Shown here piece after piece: positions 52,778 to 62,445 of a stretch of DNA of 64,000 nt. Both the position numbers and the translations under genes were made by a program. The first letter of the stretch is position 1. Every line of letters starts with the position of its first letter. The notes beneath the pieces were generated by a model, which was given only the letters and a program-made list of their open reading frames with translations, was not told the DNA's origin and did not search any database. The stretch is from the NCBI GenBank assembly GCA_902363835.1, contig CABJBM010000023.1:44452-108451 (forward strand). The letters run 5' to 3'. This DNA is from Lachnospiraceae bacterium. GTDB taxonomy: Bacteria > Bacillota > Clostridia > Lachnospirales > Lachnospiraceae.

Positions 52778-52789
52778 GAACATATGTTC
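52778..52789. promoter_or_regulatory. LexA (SOS) box 1
   Basis: GAACATATGTTC, in the context AGAACATATGTTCG, matches the Gram-positive LexA/DinR consensus CGAACRNRYGTTYG in its core. It lies 9 bp upstream of the -35 box of the promoter at 52799. Confidence 0.8.
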
Positions 52790-52798
52790 GAAAAAGTA

Positions 52799-52827
52799 TT
52801 GACAAAAGGATATGAGAGTATTATAAT
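52799..52827 (+). promoter_or_regulatory. Sigma-A promoter framed by two LexA boxes
   Basis: TTGACA (52799-52804), a 17-bp spacer and TATAAT (52822-52827), both full consensus. With one LexA box on each side it should be silent until DNA damage. The first good open reading frame downstream is the tail-fibre-like gene at 53162, about 330 bases away. Confidence 0.85.
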
Positions 52828-52845: not shown

Positions 52846-52857
52846 GAACATATGTTC
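52846..52857. promoter_or_regulatory. LexA (SOS) box 2
   Basis: A second identical GAACATATGTTC with the same flanks (ACA before, GAAAAA after), 68 bp from box 1 and just after the predicted transcription start. Confidence 0.8.
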
Positions 52858-53161: not shown

Positions 53162-53551
53162 ATGTCAAGTACAAATAAAACATCATTAGGATTAAATATG
53201 TGGGAAGCATCGGATAAGCCGGTAAGACAGGATTTTGTTAATGATAATGTTATTATTGATGAGAAGATGACTAAGTTAAATAGTGATTTAAGCAACAATA
53301 TTGGTAATGGTCGATACAGTAGTGATCTAATGGATGATGCTCCAGGGACTTTGTTGTATTGGAATGGCAATACTCATAACACTCCCTTTAAAGCTGGTCT
53401 TACCCTTTCGTCTGAAGGTATGGCTTTAGTTAAAGGCAGCTTTAGCGGATGGCAAACGGTTTTTGCTATTCCAATAGGTGATACAAGGATTTTTCTTCAT
53501 TCAACAAATGCTGGCGAACCTACTGGTTGGAAATCTATTCAATTAAGTTAA
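53162..53551 (+). CDS. Phage tail-fibre-like protein, expressed shufflon gene (constant N-terminus + cassette 0)
   Basis: A 129-aa protein. The N-terminal ~43 residues (SSTNKTSLGLNMWEASDKPV and the following DFVNDN) resemble the conserved start of tail-appendage proteins in Firmicutes phages. The C-terminal part (from SDL, residue ~42) is a small beta-rich domain ending PTGWKSIQLS, as in receptor-binding tips. The ATG has GAGGAG 7 bases upstream. A recombination repeat (53280-53290) lies at the junction of the constant and variable parts. Three other cassettes nearby start with the same repeat in the same frame, so the C-terminus should be exchangeable by inversion. No other tail genes are present. 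Confidence 0.75.
   Translation: MSSTNKTSLGLNMWEASDKPVRQDFVNDNVIIDEKMTKLNSDLSNNIGNGRYSSDLMDDAPGTLLYWNGNTHNTPFKAGLTLSSEGMALVKGSFSGWQTVFAIPIGDTRIFLHSTNAGEPTGWKSIQLS
53280..53290 (+). repeat. Shufflon recombination repeat 1
   Basis: ATAGTGATTTA within ACTAAGTTAAATAGTGATTT, at the constant/variable junction of the expressed gene; encodes part of Asn-Ser-Asp-Leu. Confidence 0.75.
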
Positions 53552-53561
53552 ATGATCATTT
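53550..53561. repeat. Palindrome at tail-to-tail junction of cassettes 0 and A
   Basis: AAATGATCATTT, a perfect palindrome, contains or touches the stop codons of both convergent cassettes. The same palindrome is at 55369-55380 between cassettes B and C. Confidence 0.7.
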
Positions 53562-53867
53562 AATTTAAATCGTTAAGAGTATAATCAATACTATAGCTAG
53601 TCTCATGGCCGTTGCTGATACTTAAAAAATATATGCCATATACTCCAAAAAAGCTTAACCACCCATATTTTCCATCAGCATATTTAAAGCCCTCAACCAG
53701 ACCCAGTCCATTTATATTAACTAATTCACGAAAATGTCCTGGAGTAGTACCATAGAATATGTTTACAAGCTTTTCCCTTATCGTTGATCCCACTACGGTT
53801 ATTTCAAGTGGAAAAGTCTTTGAATCTAAAGCTGTCAGATTGTTATTTGTGTTTGCTAAATCACTAT
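53560..53867 (-). CDS. Silent tail-fibre cassette A (no start codon)
   Basis: From repeat 2 (53857-53867 on this strand) the frame Ser-Asp-Leu-Ala-Asn-Thr is open for about 100 codons. It reads SDLANTNNNLTALDSKTFPL and continues into VGSTIREKLVNIFYGTTPG, ending TLNDLN. A TAA lies two codons before the repeat and there is no start or ribosome site at the head, so it cannot be translated as placed. A GTG at 53793 would give a 77-aa product but has no convincing ribosome site. Inversion between repeats 1 and 2 would fuse it in frame to the constant N-terminus. It ends tail-to-tail with cassette 0. Confidence 0.7.
53857..53867 (-). repeat. Shufflon recombination repeat 2
   Basis: ATAGTGATTTA on the minus strand within ACTCAATAATATAGTGATTT, at the head of cassette A and inverted relative to repeat 1. 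Confidence 0.75.
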
Positions 53868-53932
53868 ATTATTGAGTAGTGGACCAAAACTGCTCTATCT
53901 TTTACAATAATGTGGAAGGAGGGTTTTAACAA

Positions 53933-54952
53933 ATGATAGAGCAGATTTTGGAAAAAGTGATCAATTCTATGCTGCCGCACCTGGATGGTGGGCAGATGGA
54001 GCAGCTGCATAATGCACTGTATATTAATTTTCATGGCGTGGAAGTAAGGGAAGAATGTTACGAGGTAGCAGAAACGGGCATTGACGGCGACGCCTTAAAG
54101 GTCAAGATGTTCGTGGCAAGCAAAAAGGCAGTTAATCGGCAGGAAAATACCTTAAAGCAATATACAACGGAGATCTGCAAGATGCTGGATTTTCTGGGGA
54201 AACGGATTGGGGACATTACCGCCATGGATCTCCGATATTATTATGGGGTAATGAGGGAGCAGCACGGCATCAAAATGACCACCATGCAGACAAGGCTGCA
54301 TTATTTATCCAGCTTCTGGGATTTCCTCACTACAGAGGAGCTTGTGACCAGTAACCCGGTTAAACGGGTAGGGATCCTGAAGCTGGCCAAGACCATCAAA
54401 AAGCCGTTTTCCCAGGAAGAAATGGAAGCACTTAGGGTTAATTGTACGGTACTGAGGGACCGTGCCTTAATGGAGTTTTTGTACAGTACAGGCGTCAGGG
54501 TGTCTGAGCTGGCGTTACTGAATGTCTGTGATATAGAAATGGGACGGCAGGAGTTGATTGTATTTGGTAAGGGAAGTAAGGAAAGAAAGGTGTATTTGAC
54601 GGATAATGCTAGGTTTTACTTAAAGAGATACCTTAAAGAGCGCATGAAGGAGGAGGGGATAACCGAGGAAGAATTGGTAAATAAGCCCTTATTTGCAACA
54701 TTAGATCAGCCTCATGCTCGCTTAACTGTTGCTGGAATCCAATACATGTTTAGGCAGCTTGGGCGGCGTGCAGGTGTGAAGAAGGTCCATCCGCATCGTT
54801 TTAGGAGGACCATAGCTACTGATCTACTAAATAGAGGGATGCCGGTGGAGCAGGTGTCAAGACTTCTAGGACATGAAAAATTGGATACGACAATGATCTA
54901 CTGCACAGTTCAGGAGGAAAATGTGAAAGAGTCTCACCGGAAGTTTGCATAA
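53933..54952 (+). CDS. Tyrosine recombinase (XerC/D-like), probable shufflon invertase
   Basis: A 339-aa site-specific recombinase. A ~70-residue N-terminal extension and a SAM-like core-binding domain (~75-155) precede the catalytic domain. All catalytic residues are visible: Arg189 (TGVRVSEL), Lys in GKGSKERK (~212), His286-x-x-Arg289 (HPHRFRRT), His314 (LLGHEKLDTT) and Tyr323 (MIYC). GGAGGG precedes the ATG. It lies inside the invertible region, between repeats 2 and 3, so it would itself be turned over by the larger inversion. This position points to DNA inversion of the tail-fibre cassettes, not to integration of a large element. Confidence 0.88.
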   Translation: MIEQILEKVINSMLPHLDGGQMEQLHNALYINFHGVEVREECYEVAETGIDGDALKVKMFVASKKAVNRQENTLKQYTTEICKMLDFLGKRIGDITAMDLRYYYGVMREQHGIKMTTMQTRLHYLSSFWDFLTTEELVTSNPVKRVGILKLAKTIKKPFSQEEMEALRVNCTVLRDRALMEFLYSTGVRVSELALLNVCDIEMGRQELIVFGKGSKERKVYLTDNARFYLKRYLKERMKEEGITEEELVNKPLFATLDQPHARLTVAGIQYMFRQLGRRAGVKKVHPHRFRRTIATDLLNRGMPVEQVSRLLGHEKLDTTMIYCTVQEENVKESHRKFA

Positions 54953-55070
54953 ATAGCTAAAATAGATTGATTTTAAGTAGCTGGAAACGGATGCTTTATT
55001 AAGTTTACCCTTTTTCTAAACAAAAGCTAGGAATGGAGCAAGATAGAGATATGAGAGATGGCTTAATAAT

Positions 55071-55081
55071 ATAGTGATTTA
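55071..55081 (+). repeat. Shufflon recombination repeat 3
   Basis: ATAGTGATTTA within GCTTAATAATATAGTGATTT, at the head of cassette B and in the same orientation as repeat 1. Its left flank is nearly identical to that of repeat 2. Confidence 0.75.
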
Positions 55082-55363
55082 ACAAAAACAAATAGCAATT
55101 TAAGTAACTTTGTTCAGATAAATCCAAAACTAGATAGTGGCTCTTTTTGGGGTGGAAATACTAGATCACTTATAAAGTGTGAGGCTATGAACAGTGGAGA
55201 TGTGTTCAATCCTTTCATAAACATTCCGACTGATAATGGCGTTTGGTGTATCGGTACTTACGCGAAAAATGAAGAACTTATGTTTAGATACTACCCCAAA
55301 GGAGGGAATCCAACTGGCGTAGCAGCAATAATACCTCCACCGACCAGTGATAGATGGATTTAA
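55071..55363 (+). CDS. Silent tail-fibre cassette B (no start codon)
   Basis: From repeat 3 the frame Ser-Asp-Leu-Thr-Lys-Thr is open for about 96 codons to a TAA at 55361. It encodes SNLSNFVQINPKLDSGSFWG, later GVWCIGTYAKNEEL, and ends TSDRWI. No start codon or ribosome site lies at its head, so it is a storage cassette. Because repeat 3 is in direct orientation to repeat 1, this cassette can join the expressed gene by inversion only after another inversion has reversed it; direct recombination would delete the recombinase. It ends tail-to-tail with cassette C. Confidence 0.65.
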
Positions 55364-55368
55364 AGTTT

Positions 55369-55380
55369 AAATGATCATTT
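55369..55380. repeat. Palindrome at tail-to-tail junction of cassettes B and C
   Basis: AAATGATCATTT, identical to the palindrome at 53550-53561. The stop codon of cassette C lies inside it. Confidence 0.7.
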
Positions 55381-55662
55381 CACCCAATACCAATAATTTA
55401 TTCGTAAATTAGCCGAATGAGTTGATGACAAGTGTACACGTAAGATGTTTTTCTGGCATGTACATCCTATGACATGGCCGTTAAAAGCGTCATAATCACC
55501 ATTAAAAGCTATTGGAGCATATACAATAGATATGCCATTAATCGGTATATCAACATAATTTTTACCATTCGGATTTATAACCGTTGTACCAGATGCTAAT
55601 TTAGATAAATTGCTATTTATTGTAGCAATCTGATCCTTTAAATCACTATTTACTTGAGTCAA
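55375..55662 (-). CDS. Silent tail-fibre cassette C
   Basis: From repeat 4 the frame reads NSDLKDQIATINSNLSKLAS, then TTVINPNGKNYVDIPINGIS, ending RINYWYWVK. A TTG at 55660-55662 lies just before the repeat, but no good ribosome site is seen, so expression in place is unlikely. The Asn-Ser-Asp-Leu and heptad-like NSNLSKL spacing match the junction region of the expressed gene (TKLNSDLSNNI). Inversion between repeats 1 and 4 would fuse it in frame and flip the recombinase as well. Confidence 0.7.
   Translation of the reverse strand: MTQVNSDLKDQIATINSNLSKLASGTTVINPNGKNYVDIPINGISIVYAPIAFNGDYDAFNGHVIGCTCQKNILRVHLSSTHSANLRINYWYWVK
55639..55649 (-). repeat. Shufflon recombination repeat 4
   Basis: ATAGTGATTTA on the minus strand within ACTCAAGTAAATAGTGATTT, at the head of cassette C. 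Its left flank is close to that of repeat 1 (TAAATAG in both). Confidence 0.75.
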
Positions 55663-55916: not shown

Positions 55917-56972
55917 ATGAACCGACCGGAATGTTTACATATCCCTATCCTCCACGAGGGAGAACAAGCACAAATTAGTTGGGGAGCGGTGGAAGCAGAT
56001 AAAAATTATATTGTAGAACGGGTATTTAATGAATCTTTTTTACAGGCTCTGTCCGGATACACCTGGAATAATATCGCCAGTACCAATGAACCATGGAGCA
56101 GATATGATCAAGAAGCCCTTACCTGGCATCAAATTGAAACCAGGACTGGCAAAGGACAGCACTGGGAACGCCTGGATTATGAGCAGTTAAGCTGGTCACA
56201 GTTTGAGAATCATTCGCATACATGGCAGCAGTTAGAAAGCCGGGAAATAAGCTTTGAAATATTTAAAGGCTCCGGCGATGAACGGCTTGGCATTGAGCAG
56301 GGTTGTACCTGGCTGGAACTGAACGAACTTAATAAAACCTGGAACAGCCTGGAAAATTACGGACATTCATGGGATGAAGGGGAAAAGATGACACTTCCTG
56401 GCATCTCGTGGGAGAGTTTTGACTCCAGATGGCTGACATTTAACGAATGGGAAGGCAAAGGAATGACCTTCCATGAATTAGATACACAGAAACATGTAGA
56501 GGAACACCAGGGAATGACAGATTCCATTCCAATTGGGGCGTCCAACGCTATGTACCGGATCAAGACATATGATTCTAAAAGTGATGAATCTGATTATTTG
56601 ACAACAGCACAATTGCCGGTTATTCCTATATTTTACCGCAACAGCACCATGGAATACCCGGTAAAGACCGGCAAACGTTACGTAGTACTGCTGAAAGCCC
56701 AGGAGGTCAGCGGTCTGGACAAGATCCGTATGAATCTCCGGTATAATCCATACTTACTGGAATTAACCAGCTTCGCAGCCGGCAGCCTAAAAAGCATAAC
56801 TGAACCAGGGAATTATCCGGAAGAAAATTTAAGAATATATTCCAGTATTCCGGGAAAGCTGTGGTTTCAATCAACCAGACAATCAAGTCAGACTGAGTGC
56901 TTTAGCGGTTCCATTGCATTGGTGGAATTTATCGCCAAGGGAACCGGAAGCGCAGCAGTATCATTATTTTAA
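55917..56972 (+). CDS. Aromatic-repeat protein with cohesin-like C-terminal domain, RHS partner candidate
   Basis: A 351-aa protein without signal peptide or membrane helix. Residues ~45-205 hold about twelve short repeats of the type Thr/Ser-Trp/Phe-x-x-Leu/Phe-Glu, for example YTWNNI, LTWHQIE, LSWSQFE, HTWQQLE, KTWNSLE, ISWESFD, LTFNEWE and MTFHELD, spaced about 11-17 residues. Residues ~245-351 (TGKRYVVLLKAQEVSGLDKI through VEFIAKGTGSAAVSLF) resemble a cohesin fold. It ends 16 bp before the RHS toxin gene on the same strand, with no terminator between, so both should be co-expressed. Roles as chaperone, adaptor or delivery partner are guesses. Confidence 0.65.
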   Translation: MNRPECLHIPILHEGEQAQISWGAVEADKNYIVERVFNESFLQALSGYTWNNIASTNEPWSRYDQEALTWHQIETRTGKGQHWERLDYEQLSWSQFENHSHTWQQLESREISFEIFKGSGDERLGIEQGCTWLELNELNKTWNSLENYGHSWDEGEKMTLPGISWESFDSRWLTFNEWEGKGMTFHELDTQKHVEEHQGMTDSIPIGASNAMYRIKTYDSKSDESDYLTTAQLPVIPIFYRNSTMEYPVKTGKRYVVLLKAQEVSGLDKIRMNLRYNPYLLELTSFAAGSLKSITEPGNYPEENLRIYSSIPGKLWFQSTRQSSQTECFSGSIALVEFIAKGTGSAAVSLF

Positions 56973-56988
56973 GATAAGAAGGGAATAG

Positions 56989-59900
56989 ATGGACGATAAT
57001 AAGATTATAGAGGATTACATTGATGAAAATGAATGGGAAGCACCTGATACAGAGACAGCGGAGGACGTATCAGGCGGAGAAGAGAATGAAGTAAATAGTC
57101 GGGAAGTACAGTTAAACCGAGCGGTGCTGTCATCAGAGGAGGATGATTTTTCCGATGTGAAACAGTATCCGGAATCCCCTTTTACCTACTTCGAAACAAA
57201 TCAGGTAAATGTTCAATTAAGCACCGGCAATGTCCAATATGAGACAACCGATTTTGTACTGCCTGGAAGAGACGGATTTGACGTAACCATTGCTAGGCGC
57301 TATGACTCTGGTTGTGCAAATTTGGTGGATATGGATCCATATATTGACATCAAAAAAAAGGATCCATATATTGATATTGGAAAACTAAAAACAGGTTCTA
57401 AAGATAACAGCTTTTATGCCACGACTTATGGCTTGGGATATGGTTGGTCCTTTGTCTTACCCTCTATTGAGACTGTGCCATATCTTCACATGACAATAAT
57501 GGATATTCCTAATGACCCAATGGTAGCGGGGTTTCACAGTTTTGATTATATTCTGCATCTTGAAGATGGCAGAAGTTTGGAAATAAGCCGGTCTTCAGAC
57601 AGTTTCGCGAATCATAGTCTAAAAGATGTGGGTATTGTTACCAGATCAGGTACCATTCAACATCCCTACGTAGCTAATCTTTCCAAAAGCTATGATATCA
57701 TCATTGAATACAAGAATGGAGCCAGGGATTATTTTAAAAATTTAAGTGGGAATGATGGCGAACGAGGTAAGCTGACGCCGATGAAGTTTACATTAGTCGC
57801 TCGGCAGGATAAGTTTGGAAATGTGATTTGTTATGATTTAAAGGATTATGGCGGTATGGTGATTGTGGACACCTGGGGGCGTAAAATTAGCCTGGAGAAA
57901 ACTGATTACGGACTGACCTGGAGATTGCCGGAAAGTCCGGAAGGAAAAGTATGTGAACTTTCCTACCATATTGATCAGGCGCAGCCGCTTAAGCTCACCG
58001 CAGTAACAGACCCCGCAGGCCGTAGGACTGAATATAACTACTATAATCCGGGAGATTACAAGGGGATTATGAGTTATGCCTCCAAGAAAGCAGTAGGAAA
58101 TACTACTGGAAATAAGGATCGCAATTATCTGCTGCTAAAGGGTATCACATATCCCAATCAGGCATCCACACAGTTTACATATGGCAGAGAAATCAGCATT
58201 GTAAATGATGCCGGTGGAAAGCTTACCCATTTTGCATTGACGATGAAAACGGATATTGCTGACGGGGTCGAATACAACCGGGCAGAATACAGATACAGGC
58301 TTGATTCCGGAACTTCCTACGAGTACGGCAATGGTAGGTATATCGAATATGCAGAAGTAAAACATCATCAGGACGTTTTGGAAACCCATCAGTTTGATCG
58401 GGAAGGGCAGTTAATAAAAAAGGAGGTCCGGCATCAGGAGGCCCTTATTTCAAAAAGCGTTTATAAATATAGCAATAAACTAATCGTATCAGCCGTTGAC
58501 CAGGTATTTGACAGGAATAATGAATCAATATTTCTGGAAAAGAAAAACTCCTGGAAATATTCCGCAGATCAAAAAGCAAATATCATCCAACTCATTGAAG
58601 AATACCCGGATGACCCTTCCTGCAACCAGGAAATAAATACAAGCTATGGAGACTACAGCATTATTCTTGAAACGGAAAGAAAAAAAGGCTCTGACCAGAT
58701 CAGAGAAACAAATGAGCTTCATACGGAATTGGGAAATCGGGTAATAAAATGTCATCGGATCTATCAAAATGGAGTCTTAAAAGAAAAGACAGGATATGAT
58801 TATAAGGATGGGGCAAATCCCTATTGTGTGACCAATGAAAGAAGGTATTTCCTGACTGACAGCGGGGACCTGGAGCAGTCAGGTGATTATTCTGAAACAA
58901 TTTATAAATATAGCTCTTCTTCCAGCACTAACAGCAGATACACACATAACTTTATATTAAAAGAACAAACCGGTATCATAGATGCGGATGGCAGACCTTG
59001 CGATCCAATAAAGGAAGAATTTCAATATGATAGTTGGGGAAGGCTCATCTCCAAAAAGGATTCCAGGAATCAGGTAACTACCTACCGATATGACGAGTTG
59101 GGACGGATTGTAACAGAGACGCTGCCTCCGGCAGACGGCCAGCAGGCAGTAAATGAAACCTATTATAATGACCGTTTAAACTTTATCACAACAACAGATG
59201 CAAACCACCAGAAGAAACGAATTCAATATACACACTTTGGACAGATTAGGCAGGCCTGCCTGGCCGTAGCCAATGAACCAGCCACTGGTGATGTTGTGCT
59301 CCAGGATTTCCAGTATAATTCATGGGGAGAGCTGACAGAAGCAGTTACATATGATGGGAACGGCACAGCAGCAGACCATGTAAGAAAGACCGAACGTTAT
59401 ACTTACGATTCTTTTGGCCGGGTATTGTCTCGTGGAATTCCCCAAGTAAGCTATGAGGAGAAGTATGAATACAATGAGGTATTTACAGATCCGGAGGATG
59501 GCAGGAAGTACAATCGGGAACTAAAAAGAATCATAGGGGATGCCTACGCTCCGGATATTGTGACAGAATGTTATAAAGACCAAAAGGGCCAGGTCCGGAA
59601 GGGATTTTTAGCCGGGGAGAGGGTGTTTACCTACGAATATGACAATGTAGGTAACAAGATCCGAAAAATAGACGCAGGCAACAAAGTGGAACGCTGGGAG
59701 TACGATTATGCAGGACGGGTCGTAAAGATCACACGGATGGAATCCTACCAGGATAGAATTACCAGCATTCAATACGATGCGTTAGGCAATAAACGGTTTC
59801 ATTGGGATGAAGCTGGGAAGAAGACTGAATTCCAATACGATAAGGCAGGACGCCTGGTTCAAGCCACCGCGCCATTTGATCACCGCAACCGAATTGTAAA

Positions 59901-62445
59901 ATATTACTATGATGGAGTCGGTAATATCATATGGGAAAAGAAGGCACAAAAAGATGGCTGGCAGGAGACTCAGTATGTGTATGATGTAAGGAACCGTTTG
60001 ACTGATACATACCAGTACTTAAGCCCAGTCAATTGGATTAAGACCATCTGCCGGTATGATGCGATGAATCAGGTTATTCTAAGGAGAACCGGAGATACCC
60101 CGTCCGACGAAGGGCGGGAGGTGACAAAATATGCCTATGACCGCTTTGGAAATGTCACGGCAATGACGGATGCCCGTGGCTGTACGGAATACTATGAGTA
60201 TGATAAAGCCGGTAGATTGCAGAAGAAAACTGACAGGAACAAGGACCAGATCATTTATCAGCATGATGCTCTGGAACGCCTGATAAAAGAAACCGTGCAA
60301 AAGAGAACTCCTGATGGCCTGGTCATTAGCGAGCTGGAGTATGGCTATGGTAAGAACGGTAAGCGAATTAGAGAAGTCGGCCGAGAAACGGTGGAAGGAA
60401 AACAAAACATCCTTCTAGAGACGAAGTACCGCTACAATAATAAAGGCCAGCTAACCCGTCAGGAAGATCCAGGAAATGTAGTGAAGGATTATACTTATGA
60501 TATATATGGAAATCGCCAGTCCTTTCAACTATTTTGTGAAGGAAAAGCAAGCCCGGATGTCAGTCTGTATTATGCATATGATGACTTATACCGTTTAAAG
60601 CAGGTAAGAAAAAACAGTGCTGCCGGGCTGATACTGGCGGAATATGAATATGATGAAAAAGGCAATCGTAAAACCCACCGCTATCCTCAGTCCGCTATGG
60701 AAACCAGTTATAAGTATAATGATGGCAACAGGGTAATATCTTTAGAGAATAAACGGCAGGGAATCGTGATTTCTGCATGGGAATACAGCTATGATGTAGA
60801 TGGAAACATTTTAACCAAGATTAACAAAGCTGGTTCTGCCCCAGCCACCATATCATATCAATATGACCGGCTGGGCCGTCTGACAGAAGAAGATTATTCC
60901 GGCTGGAAGCGAACGCTTTATACCTATGACGCCTATTCCAACCGTAAGAAAATGATGGTGGAAGGAAGAACAAAGGATGAACTGGTCAGTGTCACCAGCT
61001 ATGAGTATGGTTTAAACAACCGTTTGGAAAAGGAGACAAAAAAGCAGGGAAAAACAACGGAAACGTATCAGTACCGTTATGATGATAATGGGAATCAAAC
61101 CTTCCGGATCTGGGAGAAAACAGCACCAACGCCGGACTATCCGGGAAATGTCAAGTTATCAGGGACCTATCAGAAGGAGGTTCCAACGGTTTATGAGTGG
61201 AGACATTATGATGGATTCAACCAACTGAGCCGGATCAACCAGGATGACAAAGAGATTACATATCAGTACCGGGGTGATGGCTTGCGCCACAGCGCCCAGG
61301 TGAGGAGACTGACCGAAAGCCAGGGGAAAACGAATTTGTATTGCTGGGATGGAAGCGATATCGTAGCGGAACAGACTGACGGGGGTAAGATTAAAACCTA
61401 TTTAAGGGGAATCAATTTGATTGCCAGAGAAATAGATGGTATGGTATACTACTATATATTTAATGAACACGGGGATGTAACCCAGCTATGGAGTCAGAGC
61501 GGAGTATGTAAAGCCTCGTATGAGTATGATGCTTTTGGAGTTGAGAGAAGTCCAGATAAGGAGGATGAGAATCCATTCCGGTATTGTGGGGAGTATCTGG
61601 ATTTAGAGTCGAATACTTACTACTTACGGGCAAGAAACTATAGATCGACAACAGGACGTTTTTCGACGGAAGATAGTGTACGCGGAATCATGAGAAAACT
61701 TCCTAACGACATGAGAGTTCCGGACCCATTGAGTTTAAACCTCTACACATATACCCATAATAATCCTCTTTATTATCAGGATCCGGGTGGACACTTTGTA
61801 ATAAGTACTACTGTTCTTGTAGCTATTGGATTGGCGGCAGTGGGTGCAGTAGTTGGTGGTTTCATTGGAAACTACATTGCTAATAAAGTTAATGCAGCGA
61901 GCCAAGACCGGTGGAAATATATTGCTGGCGGAGCAGTTGGTGGAGCAGTGATTGGTGCTGCGGCAGGATATTTAGTGGGGCCATCAATAGCAACCGCCAC
62001 AGGAATCGGTGGTATATCTGTTACAAGTGCTGGTATTTCTACAGTGACATCTGGAGCTGTTGGAGCAACTGGATTCGAGCAGGCTCATCAGTTGGTGCAG
62101 GCACAACAAACTGTTCAAGATGCTACACCAGTAATAGGAAATAAATTAAATTATGTATTTGGTCAAGCGACAGGTTCGGCTCATAATATCAAACGTTCAA
62201 CAGACATGTTGAATCAATTAAACCGCATTGGCATTTACGATACTGAGTATTGGAGGAACTCTATGTTTCAAAAGTTATGGCAAGATTATTATAATCTTAT
62301 ACCAACTCTACAGGAAAATGGGCGGCATGTAAGGGATTCATTGCTTAACGGGCCGAATGGAATGCTTAAAATGGAGACTATATGGCAAGGTGGGAAGCTT
62401 ATTACAATTGAATTGTTCGGCAAGGCAGACTCTTGGTTCCGGTAG
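56989..62445 (+). CDS. RHS/YD-repeat polymorphic toxin
   Basis: An 1818-aa protein. An acidic N-terminus (~1-65, no signal peptide) is followed by an RHS N-terminal beta region (FVLPGRDGFDVTIARRY onward). Many YD repeats (YRYDELGRIV, YDKAGRLVQA, YEYDEKGNRKT and others, ~680-1500) follow, then the RHS core (NPFRYCGEYLDLESNTYYLR through NNPLYYQDPGGHF, ending near residue 1603). After DPGG come a glycine-zipper-like hydrophobic segment (~1605-1680) and a ~100-residue variable C-terminus (NKLNYVFGQATGSAHNIKRS onward). That tail is the probable toxin, freed inside the YD shell. Its biochemical activity is not recognised. A candidate immunity gene follows. Delivery is unexplained because no secretion signal is seen. 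Confidence 0.88.
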   Translation: MDDNKIIEDYIDENEWEAPDTETAEDVSGGEENEVNSREVQLNRAVLSSEEDDFSDVKQYPESPFTYFETNQVNVQLSTGNVQYETTDFVLPGRDGFDVTIARRYDSGCANLVDMDPYIDIKKKDPYIDIGKLKTGSKDNSFYATTYGLGYGWSFVLPSIETVPYLHMTIMDIPNDPMVAGFHSFDYILHLEDGRSLEISRSSDSFANHSLKDVGIVTRSGTIQHPYVANLSKSYDIIIEYKNGARDYFKNLSGNDGERGKLTPMKFTLVARQDKFGNVICYDLKDYGGMVIVDTWGRKISLEKTDYGLTWRLPESPEGKVCELSYHIDQAQPLKLTAVTDPAGRRTEYNYYNPGDYKGIMSYASKKAVGNTTGNKDRNYLLLKGITYPNQASTQFTYGREISIVNDAGGKLTHFALTMKTDIADGVEYNRAEYRYRLDSGTSYEYGNGRYIEYAEVKHHQDVLETHQFDREGQLIKKEVRHQEALISKSVYKYSNKLIVSAVDQVFDRNNESIFLEKKNSWKYSADQKANIIQLIEEYPDDPSCNQEINTSYGDYSIILETERKKGSDQIRETNELHTELGNRVIKCHRIYQNGVLKEKTGYDYKDGANPYCVTNERRYFLTDSGDLEQSGDYSETIYKYSSSSSTNSRYTHNFILKEQTGIIDADGRPCDPIKEEFQYDSWGRLISKKDSRNQVTTYRYDELGRIVTETLPPADGQQAVNETYYNDRLNFITTTDANHQKKRIQYTHFGQIRQACLAVANEPATGDVVLQDFQYNSWGELTEAVTYDGNGTAADHVRKTERYTYDSFGRVLSRGIPQVSYEEKYEYNEVFTDPEDGRKYNRELKRIIGDAYAPDIVTECYKDQKGQVRKGFLAGERVFTYEYDNVGNKIRKIDAGNKVERWEYDYAGRVVKITRMESYQDRITSIQYDALGNKRFHWDEAGKKTEFQYDKAGRLVQATAPFDHRNRIVKYYYDGVGNIIWEKKAQKDGWQETQYVYDVRNRLTDTYQYLSPVNWIKTICRYDAMNQVILRRTGDTPSDEGREVTKYAYDRFGNVTAMTDARGCTEYYEYDKAGRLQKKTDRNKDQIIYQHDALERLIKETVQKRTPDGLVISELEYGYGKNGKRIREVGRETVEGKQNILLETKYRYNNKGQLTRQEDPGNVVKDYTYDIYGNRQSFQLFCEGKASPDVSLYYAYDDLYRLKQVRKNSAAGLILAEYEYDEKGNRKTHRYPQSAMETSYKYNDGNRVISLENKRQGIVISAWEYSYDVDGNILTKINKAGSAPATISYQYDRLGRLTEEDYSGWKRTLYTYDAYSNRKKMMVEGRTKDELVSVTSYEYGLNNRLEKETKKQGKTTETYQYRYDDNGNQTFRIWEKTAPTPDYPGNVKLSGTYQKEVPTVYEWRHYDGFNQLSRINQDDKEITYQYRGDGLRHSAQVRRLTESQGKTNLYCWDGSDIVAEQTDGGKIKTYLRGINLIAREIDGMVYYYIFNEHGDVTQLWSQSGVCKASYEYDAFGVERSPDKEDENPFRYCGEYLDLESNTYYLRARNYRSTTGRFSTEDSVRGIMRKLPNDMRVPDPLSLNLYTYTHNNPLYYQDPGGHFVISTTVLVAIGLAAVGAVVGGFIGNYIANKVNAASQDRWKYIAGGAVGGAVIGAAAGYLVGPSIATATGIGGISVTSAGISTVTSGAVGATGFEQAHQLVQAQQTVQDATPVIGNKLNYVFGQATGSAHNIKRSTDMLNQLNRIGIYDTEYWRNSMFQKLWQDYYNLIPTLQENGRHVRDSLLNGPNGMLKMETIWQGGKLITIELFGKADSWFR

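Follow-up and report, generated by a model that had tools for sequence, protein, structure and literature searches.

Why would a bacterium keep four interchangeable tips for a tail-fibre-like protein, with a recombinase in their midst, beside an Rhs gene? We addressed this question in a 64,000-nucleotide stretch of DNA from a Lacrimispora-like Lachnospiraceae bacterium (GenBank assembly GCA_902363835.1, contig CABJBM010000023.1, positions 44,452 to 108,451; hereafter the window), in which an earlier note had described an orphan tail-fibre shufflon at positions 53,162 to 55,662. Known shufflons diversify pili, phage receptor-binding proteins and restriction specificity. We found that this locus is a tyrosine-recombinase fibre shufflon outside any phage, a variant distinct from the R64 and Rin systems. 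Switching of the fibre tip is strongly supported, and it is very probable that the four-cassette module has been recruited to an SOS-controlled Rhs locus, where it would switch receptor specificity. The setting suggests a weapon or adhesin of the bacterium whose target can be changed.

Results

Architecture of the locus

The sequence ATAGTGATTTA is present in four exact copies of alternating orientation, at 53280 (+), 53857 (-), 55071 (+) and 55639 (-), and no further match was found in the 64-kb window with one mismatch allowed, which bears out the repeats described earlier. Because shuffling alone leads to an expectation of 1.58 matches with up to one mismatch, the weight rests on the exactness, order and frame of the four sites. 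An order-1 Markov model predicts 0.035 exact copies per 64 kb (maximum of 1 in 200 simulations) and, for the local 3.3 kb, 0.016 (maximum of 1 in 500 simulations). All four sites are read in the AGT-GAT-TTA frame (Ser-Asp-Leu), and each heads a different C-terminal cassette, with open frames of 89, 101, 96 and 90 codons behind them, as the note had claimed. Its statement that three cassettes lack a start also stands: only c1 is joined to a ribosome-binding site and an ATG (53162), and the frame of c4 has a possible TTG start at 55662. A complete tyrosine recombinase does lie in the middle. The outer flanks of r1 to r4 are ACTAAG, ACTCAA, GCTTAA and ACTCAA; the earlier wording of the flanks as ACTYAA is slightly off. 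Three features go beyond the note: a pairing of the cassettes, two LexA-type boxes upstream, and downstream orf351 and Rhs genes that form a conserved unit with the fibre. The region runs from the constant N-terminus through r1 and c1 (forward), c2 and r2 (reverse), the recombinase (forward) and r3 and c3 (forward) to c4 and r4 (reverse). The cassettes form two tail-to-tail pairs, c1/c2 and c3/c4, each meeting at the palindrome AAATGATCATTT:

53162..53279, + strand: constant N-terminal part of the fibre gene, to the core
53280..53290, + strand: recombination site r1, ATAGTGATTTA
53280..53551, + strand: cassette c1, in the expressed position, 89 codons and stop
53550..53561, no strand: palindrome AAATGATCATTT at the c1/c2 tail-to-tail junction
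53560..53867, - strand: silent cassette c2, 101 codons
53857..53867, - strand: recombination site r2
53933..54952, + strand: tyrosine recombinase, 339 amino acids (Phage_integrase, 1.1e-36)
55071..55081, + strand: recombination site r3
55071..55363, + strand: silent cassette c3, 96 codons
55369..55380, no strand: palindrome AAATGATCATTT at the c3/c4 junction
55375..55649, - strand: silent cassette c4, 90 codons
55639..55649, - strand: recombination site r4

Rearranged cassettes in related genomes

Do related loci carry the cassettes in other arrangements? Scanning genome contigs with the fibre alignment, we found 17 loci. The four-site layout with its recombinase recurs in five other genomes (L001, L005, L064, L065 and L066); one forward and one reverse cassette are present in L002-L004, L007, L008, L013, L068 and L069, and a clear reverse cassette was not seen in L006 and L009-L012. 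Among the five close loci (the window, L001, L064, L065 and L066), the N-terminal part is 90.7-97.5% identical and the block from r2 through the recombinase to r3 is 95.3-97.9% identical, while the segments inside the sites are 43.0-59.8% identical, near the 45.6-51.3% that five shuffles of one pair gave. The stretch from r4 to orf351, the next gene, comes in two types (50-90%) in these loci. L005 is more distant, with about 66% identity in the recombinase block. The 8-bp core ATAGTGAT, with weak arms, is found in 24 of 24 sites of six loci, a count that is somewhat selected because sites were located by allowing at most two mismatches to ATAGTGATTTA.

The silent c2 of the window occurs elsewhere both fused and in a different slot. 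All 101 of its 101 residues align, at 97% identity, with residues 41-141 of P0035, in which the same constant N-terminus as that of the window fibre is joined to c2 exactly at the repeat. L065 carries c2 in slot 4, with 91.5% nucleotide identity when gaps are counted. Since c2 occupies slot 2 in the window and slot 4 in L065, exchange between the pairs happens, either by the recombinase or by other recombination. Five of 25 silent cassettes (18 from four-site and 7 from two-site loci) have a full-length fused counterpart with at least 92% identity and a junction at residue 41 among the 120 listed of 179 homologous proteins that were compared. These are c2 of the window, c2 (92.7%) and c4 (98.8%) of L001, and c2 and c4 of L064 (both 100%, P0064), the last two being copies of one cassette. 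The two cassette pairs of L064 are near-identical (99.7%), which reflects either a true duplication or an assembly effect; P0064 and P0050 share their longest contig, so the strain that carries them may hold two fibre genes, an arrangement that we did not use as support.

Over 90% of its length, the silent c4 tip shares 60% identity with P0122, whose N-terminus differs; it is this N-terminus, and not the tip, that recurs in five viral contigs. No homologue of c3 was found by protein search, and tblastn gave two relatives, in L002 and L068, both in the reverse position. The ratio of nonsynonymous to synonymous substitution rates (dN/dS) for c3, the sole silent cassette tested for selection, is 0.34 against L002 and 0.19 against L068; that for c1 is 0.27 (window against L001). 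Silent c3 is under purifying selection, as would be expected if it takes the expressed position from time to time. Of 299 genomes in a broader sample of the family, 4 matched, two of them through a c1-type tip alone, within frames of 453 and 490 residues.

Inversion in a sister shufflon

Can inversion be seen within a single assembly? In genome G319, a second copy of the recombinase (94%) follows the fibre gene of a contractile-tail module. The module, 16 frames of which were scanned against Pfam, has a tail terminator, a sheath (split over two frames), YqbQ, DUF2577, a sheath initiator, baseplate J and Mu Gp48, after which come the fibre, recombinase, holin and amidase genes; a repressor-type gene and an IrrE-like gene stand in front. 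No capsid gene was recognised among the listed frames, and therefore the module looks like a tailocin. We found no LexA-type box in the 20 kb of it that were read.

The first ~19 kb of the G319 contig recur at its end, at 99.7% over 8 kb from base 1 and then in stretches of 5.3 kb at 100% and 2.9 kb at 99.9%. An untrimmed circle would give such an overlap; a true terminal duplication is the alternative. Between the two ends, the 677-bp r1-r2 segment is reversed with no mismatch and two gaps; the outer flanks stay, and the exchange of the inner flanks falls precisely at the 8-bp core ATGCTGAT. Under either reading of the contig ends, this segment has been inverted at the core. The r3-r4 segments also differ between the ends; at one end the first pair is nearly duplicated there (95.6%, 23 gaps). 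The contig ends correspond to loci L067, L070, L071 and L073, with different fibre arrangements.

The palindrome AAATGATCATTT, of which the window holds only two copies, is also found at the junction in L001, L005, L064-L067 and L070. It is exact at the tail-to-tail junction of 13 of 16 segments in the four-site and tailocin loci, or 16 of 28 when two-site loci are added, and could act as another point of exchange or as a stop in both directions.

The recombinase

The recombinase is XerD-like; its nearest NCBIfam models are XerA, XerC and XerD, all below the cut-off. R189, H288, R291, H314 and Y323, which we take to be the catalytic-motif residues, are invariant in seven recombinase sequences. 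The protein is 98-99% identical in four relatives and 73% identical in L005, and its dN/dS is 0.05 (window against L001). Among 25 genomes of the genus, four carry a recombinase that is at least 94% identical. An 18-nt inverted repeat (53886-53948, 89%) covers its ribosome-binding site and start and could limit its translation.

We placed 20 recombinases in a tree, which has a midpoint root only and drew a long-branch warning from the tool. The 11 fibre-associated recombinases, which include copies from viral contigs, tailocins and Rhs loci, join (100/99) apart from three that are associated with hsdS (96/97). The Lacrimispora Rhs-locus recombinases form a group of five (96/92), closest by path to the tailocin copy of G319. 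That of L005 falls elsewhere in the fibre clade without firm placement, a hint of more than one recruitment. Nine viral contigs matched the recombinase alignment, five at 63-76% (one partial) and four at 28-29%. Relatives at 38-40% are found in the type I restriction loci L075, L076 (G309) and L077 (phage record MT835621), where hsdS-like pieces, HsdS being named by inspection, lie on both strands.

SOS-type control signals

Upstream of the fibre gene, two LexA-type boxes frame a promoter-like site:

52778..52789, no strand: LexA-type box 1, GAACATATGTTC
52799..52827, + strand: promoter-like TTGACA-N17-TATAAT between the two boxes
52846..52857, no strand: LexA-type box 2

All 18 of the 18 loci checked carry the motif GAACN4GTTC in the 600 bp before the fibre; two boxes 66-69 bp apart are present in 14 of them, and a TTGACA-N16-18-TATAAT-type match in 12. 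By comparison, the motif occurs twice in 220,524 bases of 13 loci outside the regions upstream of the fibre. The same box type is found at recA in 13 of 13 genomes. Of 22 lexA matches, 14 loci were examined and 12 have the box; the two without it are in G007. The conservation of the boxes and their match to those at recA and lexA mean that SOS control of the fibre is strongly predicted. Phage and bacteriocin genes are commonly controlled in this way.

The fibre, orf351 and Rhs unit

Is the shufflon an orphan? Three genes follow it in the window:

55917..56972, + strand: orf351, encoding a conserved 351-residue protein with no family above the cut-off
56989..62445, + strand: Rhs/YD-repeat protein, 1818 residues
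62521..63036, + strand: small open reading frame after the Rhs gene, a candidate immunity gene by position only, with no family

orf351 follows the fibre in 13 of 13 loci (L001-L013), with Rhs next in 11; the other two end inside orf351. At L014-L017, whose fibre N-termini are 57-74% similar, orf351 and Rhs are present in 0 of 4. Across the 25 genomes of the genus, 16 carry the fibre and 17 carry orf351, and in the 17th the fibre is cut by a contig end. The shufflon is thus not the orphan that it was first taken for, but is tied to an Rhs locus with LexA boxes in which orf351 and Rhs belong to a conserved unit. The suggestion that it is domesticated fits, given this unit and given that fibre and orf351 were not found in viral contigs: none of 22 pattern matches to the fibre was confirmed there, and orf351 gave no pattern match. 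The unit does not occupy a single chromosomal site, as the penicillin-binding-protein gene upstream in the window adjoins it in 5 of the 17 relatives examined.

The Rhs core is conserved to about residue 1600, beyond which the sequence departs from that of all eight relatives compared, a mark of polymorphic toxins; no toxin family or domain matched its C-terminus. The corresponding DNA, 61786-62445, differs from that of eight relatives. By inspection, fibre, orf351 and Rhs have no signal peptide at their starts. The orf351 protein is 67-92% identical to 15 relatives and has tryptophans about every 10 residues over its first half; its predicted structure was unusable (mean predicted local distance difference test score, pLDDT, of 35).

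Tail-fibre origin and shared tips

Where did the module come from? In L014 and L016, relatives of the fibre N-terminus stand at the end of a set of baseplate genes, after Baseplate_J and Mu Gp48 in the former and after Baseplate_J and an unnamed gene in the latter; by inspection, the same holds for L015. The contractile-tail fibre shufflons of the G319 module (L067/L070) and of viral contigs L119 and L120 belong to the same recombinase clade and share the four-site + - + - layout. Their cores are ATAGTGAT in L119 and L120, beside Baseplate_J, Mu Gp48 and fibre genes, and ATGCTGAT in L067. Viral contig L121 has three such sites and L118 has the variant ATGGTGAT. These shufflons adjoin baseplate genes; the copy in the window is followed by orf351 and Rhs. 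Moreover, P0006 joins the constant part of a G319-type tailocin fibre (85% over 34 residues) to a c1-type tip, and tips are therefore common to tailocin and Rhs-locus settings. Judged by these sequence relationships, the module clearly derives from the tail-fibre shufflons of contractile tails.

In L006 (5745-6359), the cassette of an Rhs-locus fibre carries the tail-fibre motif GYALDARYG, a hybrid with tailocin-fibre-type sequence. Viral contigs L128, L130, L131, L133 and L134 hold tailocin-type fibres with forward and reverse cassettes and the core ATAGTGAT.

The fibre itself has no Pfam match, and a search of 37 fibre proteins with Pfam and PHROGs found no informative domain in the tips, only two chance-like Pfam names in one member each. 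A match to phrog_33092 (function unknown, best 3.2e-5) is present in 35 of the 37, through the N-terminus in the rows shown. Tips and fibres gave one chance-level match and otherwise none against solved structures, and none against phage records; the fibre likewise had no match in a phage collection, the shufflon module had none among plasmids, and PADLOC returned no hit. The predicted fibre model, with a mean pLDDT-type score of 79, is good in the tip (block means of 90-95 for residues 71-129). No tail, capsid or lysis gene was recognised by inspection among the listed open reading frames of the window, in agreement with the earlier note.

Discussion

How does this locus relate to known shufflons? 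The R64 shufflon uses the Rci recombinase and 19-bp sfx sites to vary the PilV pilus tip. The likeness that led to the label R64-type is real as a design, since two-headed invertible segments swap the C-terminus of a binding protein by means of a tyrosine recombinase; as membership it fails, because the target is a tail-fibre protein rather than PilV. The sites of the window have an 8-bp core flanked by weak arms. In the Rin shufflon of Bifidobacterium prophages, a constant receptor-binding N-terminus, silent C-termini, a XerD-like recombinase and 11-bp sites (TTCCCTAACCC) lie within a full prophage, and the authors observed inversions (PMC6109161). The window locus shares with Rin a constant N-terminus, several C-terminal cassettes that lack promoters and each begin with one short inverted site, and a XerD-like recombinase at the locus. 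In Rin, however, the constant gene and the recombinase stand on either side of the variable genes, whereas here the recombinase lies between two tail-to-tail pairs, the site is another one, there is no phage, and LexA-type boxes and an Rhs neighbour are present. The locus is closest to Rin in its parts and works like R64 and Rin, yet we place it in neither, because it acts on a protein other than PilV and no phage carries it.

Two further systems share parts with it. Type I restriction hsdS shufflons, such as that of S. pneumoniae (PMC4948785) and those of L075, L076 and L077, include the closest recombinase relatives seen outside the fibre clade (38-40%); these lie among restriction-specificity genes, not fibres. 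Rhs polymorphic toxin systems, with Rhs repeats, a conserved core and a variable C-terminus in the passages covered of PMC3482391, resemble the window Rhs in core and C-terminus; those passages do not describe a fibre and shufflon beside Rhs. We found no paper on the locus in the literature (titles and beginnings of abstracts, with subscription literature little covered), and an earlier mention in a 2023 survey of programmed inversions is possible.

How would the switch work? The recombinase would exchange strands within the 8-bp core ATAGTGAT of inverted sites. An r1-r2 inversion would change the fibre tip from c1 to c2, and an r1-r4 inversion with further flips would bring c4 or c3 into the fibre; by computation, inversion alone reaches 16 arrangements, four of which express any given cassette. 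The ribosome-binding site and constant N-terminus, below the promoter-like site with its LexA boxes, are joined to the r1 cassette alone. Recombination between direct repeats (r1-r3 or r2-r4) would delete the recombinase and must therefore be disfavoured. On this reading the module came from contractile-tail fibre shufflons of prophages and tailocins and now serves a chromosomal fibre-orf351-Rhs locus. That locus would be SOS-induced; DNA damage may release a particle or complex in which the fibre is the receptor-binding part, and shuffling would alter which cells the fibre binds. The earlier view of a receptor-binding tail-fibre shufflon gains support from the rearranged copies in other genomes, the inversion in the sister system and the relatives in contractile-tail modules.

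Several observations weigh against recruitment of an active switch to an SOS-controlled Rhs locus. First, the evidence for inversion comes from the sister system and from other genomes, none of it from the strain of the window itself. Second, 20 of the 25 silent cassettes have no near-identical fused counterpart among the proteins compared, and 12 of the 16 fibre-bearing genomes of the genus have no recombinase closer than 40%. Third, the recombinase points in the direction of the fibre in six of six Rhs-locus copies and in both tailocin copies (on viral contig L120 it is opposite); r2-r3 and r1-r4 exchanges may thus be rare, and r1-r2 and r3-r4 flips may dominate. Fourth, the frames behind the four sites of G319 and G320 close after 4-34 codons. 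In the one G319 cassette compared with c2 of the window, the differences are mostly single-base deletions, which are probably sequencing errors, and this weakens decay of all cassettes in these genomes as an explanation. Finally, contractile-tail (sheath-initiator) genes are present in 24 of the 25 genomes of the genus, so co-occurrence cannot test a coupling of fibre and tailocin. We infer a functional link between fibre and Rhs; binding of the fibre to Rhs or to any cell is hypothetical.

Could the fibre be a phase-variable adhesin that decorates the cell surface alone, with the Rhs genes as mere neighbours? A physical link of fibre and Rhs, and a promoter shared with orf351 and Rhs, are hypothetical, and the orf351 model is uninformative. 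Against this idea, the N-terminus is of the tail-fibre type and has no signal peptide by inspection, orf351 stays behind the fibre at L001-L013 and is nearly matched to it in number across the genus (17 and 16 of 25), and SOS control is typical of phage and bacteriocin genes. We therefore regard an adhesin as unlikely. It is also improbable that the locus is a store of spare tips, supplying fibres or cassettes to a tailocin that the strain encodes elsewhere. The c1-type tip on a tailocin-type constant region in P0006, the related recombinase and layout in the G319 module and the widespread sheath-initiator genes speak for such a store, but the cores differ in G319 (ATAGTGAT against ATGCTGAT) and the genes conserved beside the fibre are not tail genes but orf351 and Rhs.

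A frozen relic, a piece of a fibre shufflon left by phage decay and no longer switching or used, is very unlikely. The descent of the module from tail-fibre shufflons, the short frames behind all four sites in G319 and G320 and the many fibre-bearing genomes without a close recombinase would suit it. Yet the recombinase is well conserved (73% even in L005) with a dN/dS of 0.05, silent c3 is under purifying selection, the same cassette appears in different slots and fused, and the LexA-type boxes and the orf351 and Rhs neighbours are conserved. That ordinary horizontal exchange or homologous recombination, not site-specific inversion, made the cassette differences can be all but dismissed: most cassettes of different genomes are unrelated in sequence, so cassette turnover is certain, but the sister-system flip lies at the 8-bp core with outer flanks in place and fused forms join exactly at residue 41.

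What would a switching fibre at an SOS-controlled Rhs locus be for? It is possible, though we lean against it, that fibre, orf351 and Rhs form one killing or delivery complex, a non-phage Rhs weapon released under SOS, whose receptor-binding tip is switched by a shufflon borrowed from tailocins. Members of a clone would then attack different neighbours, and cassettes would circulate between tailocin, prophage and Rhs loci as a shared pool. A tail-fibre shufflon that Lacrimispora-type chromosomes retain next to an Rhs gene and LexA-type boxes would amount to programmed diversification of the targeting part of a bacterial competition system. The locus also offers a directly testable case of fibre-tip exchange among prophages, tailocins and a host-owned locus, and its natural set of sites, with the same core in 24 of 24, may help to explain how a XerD-like recombinase favours inversion over deletion.

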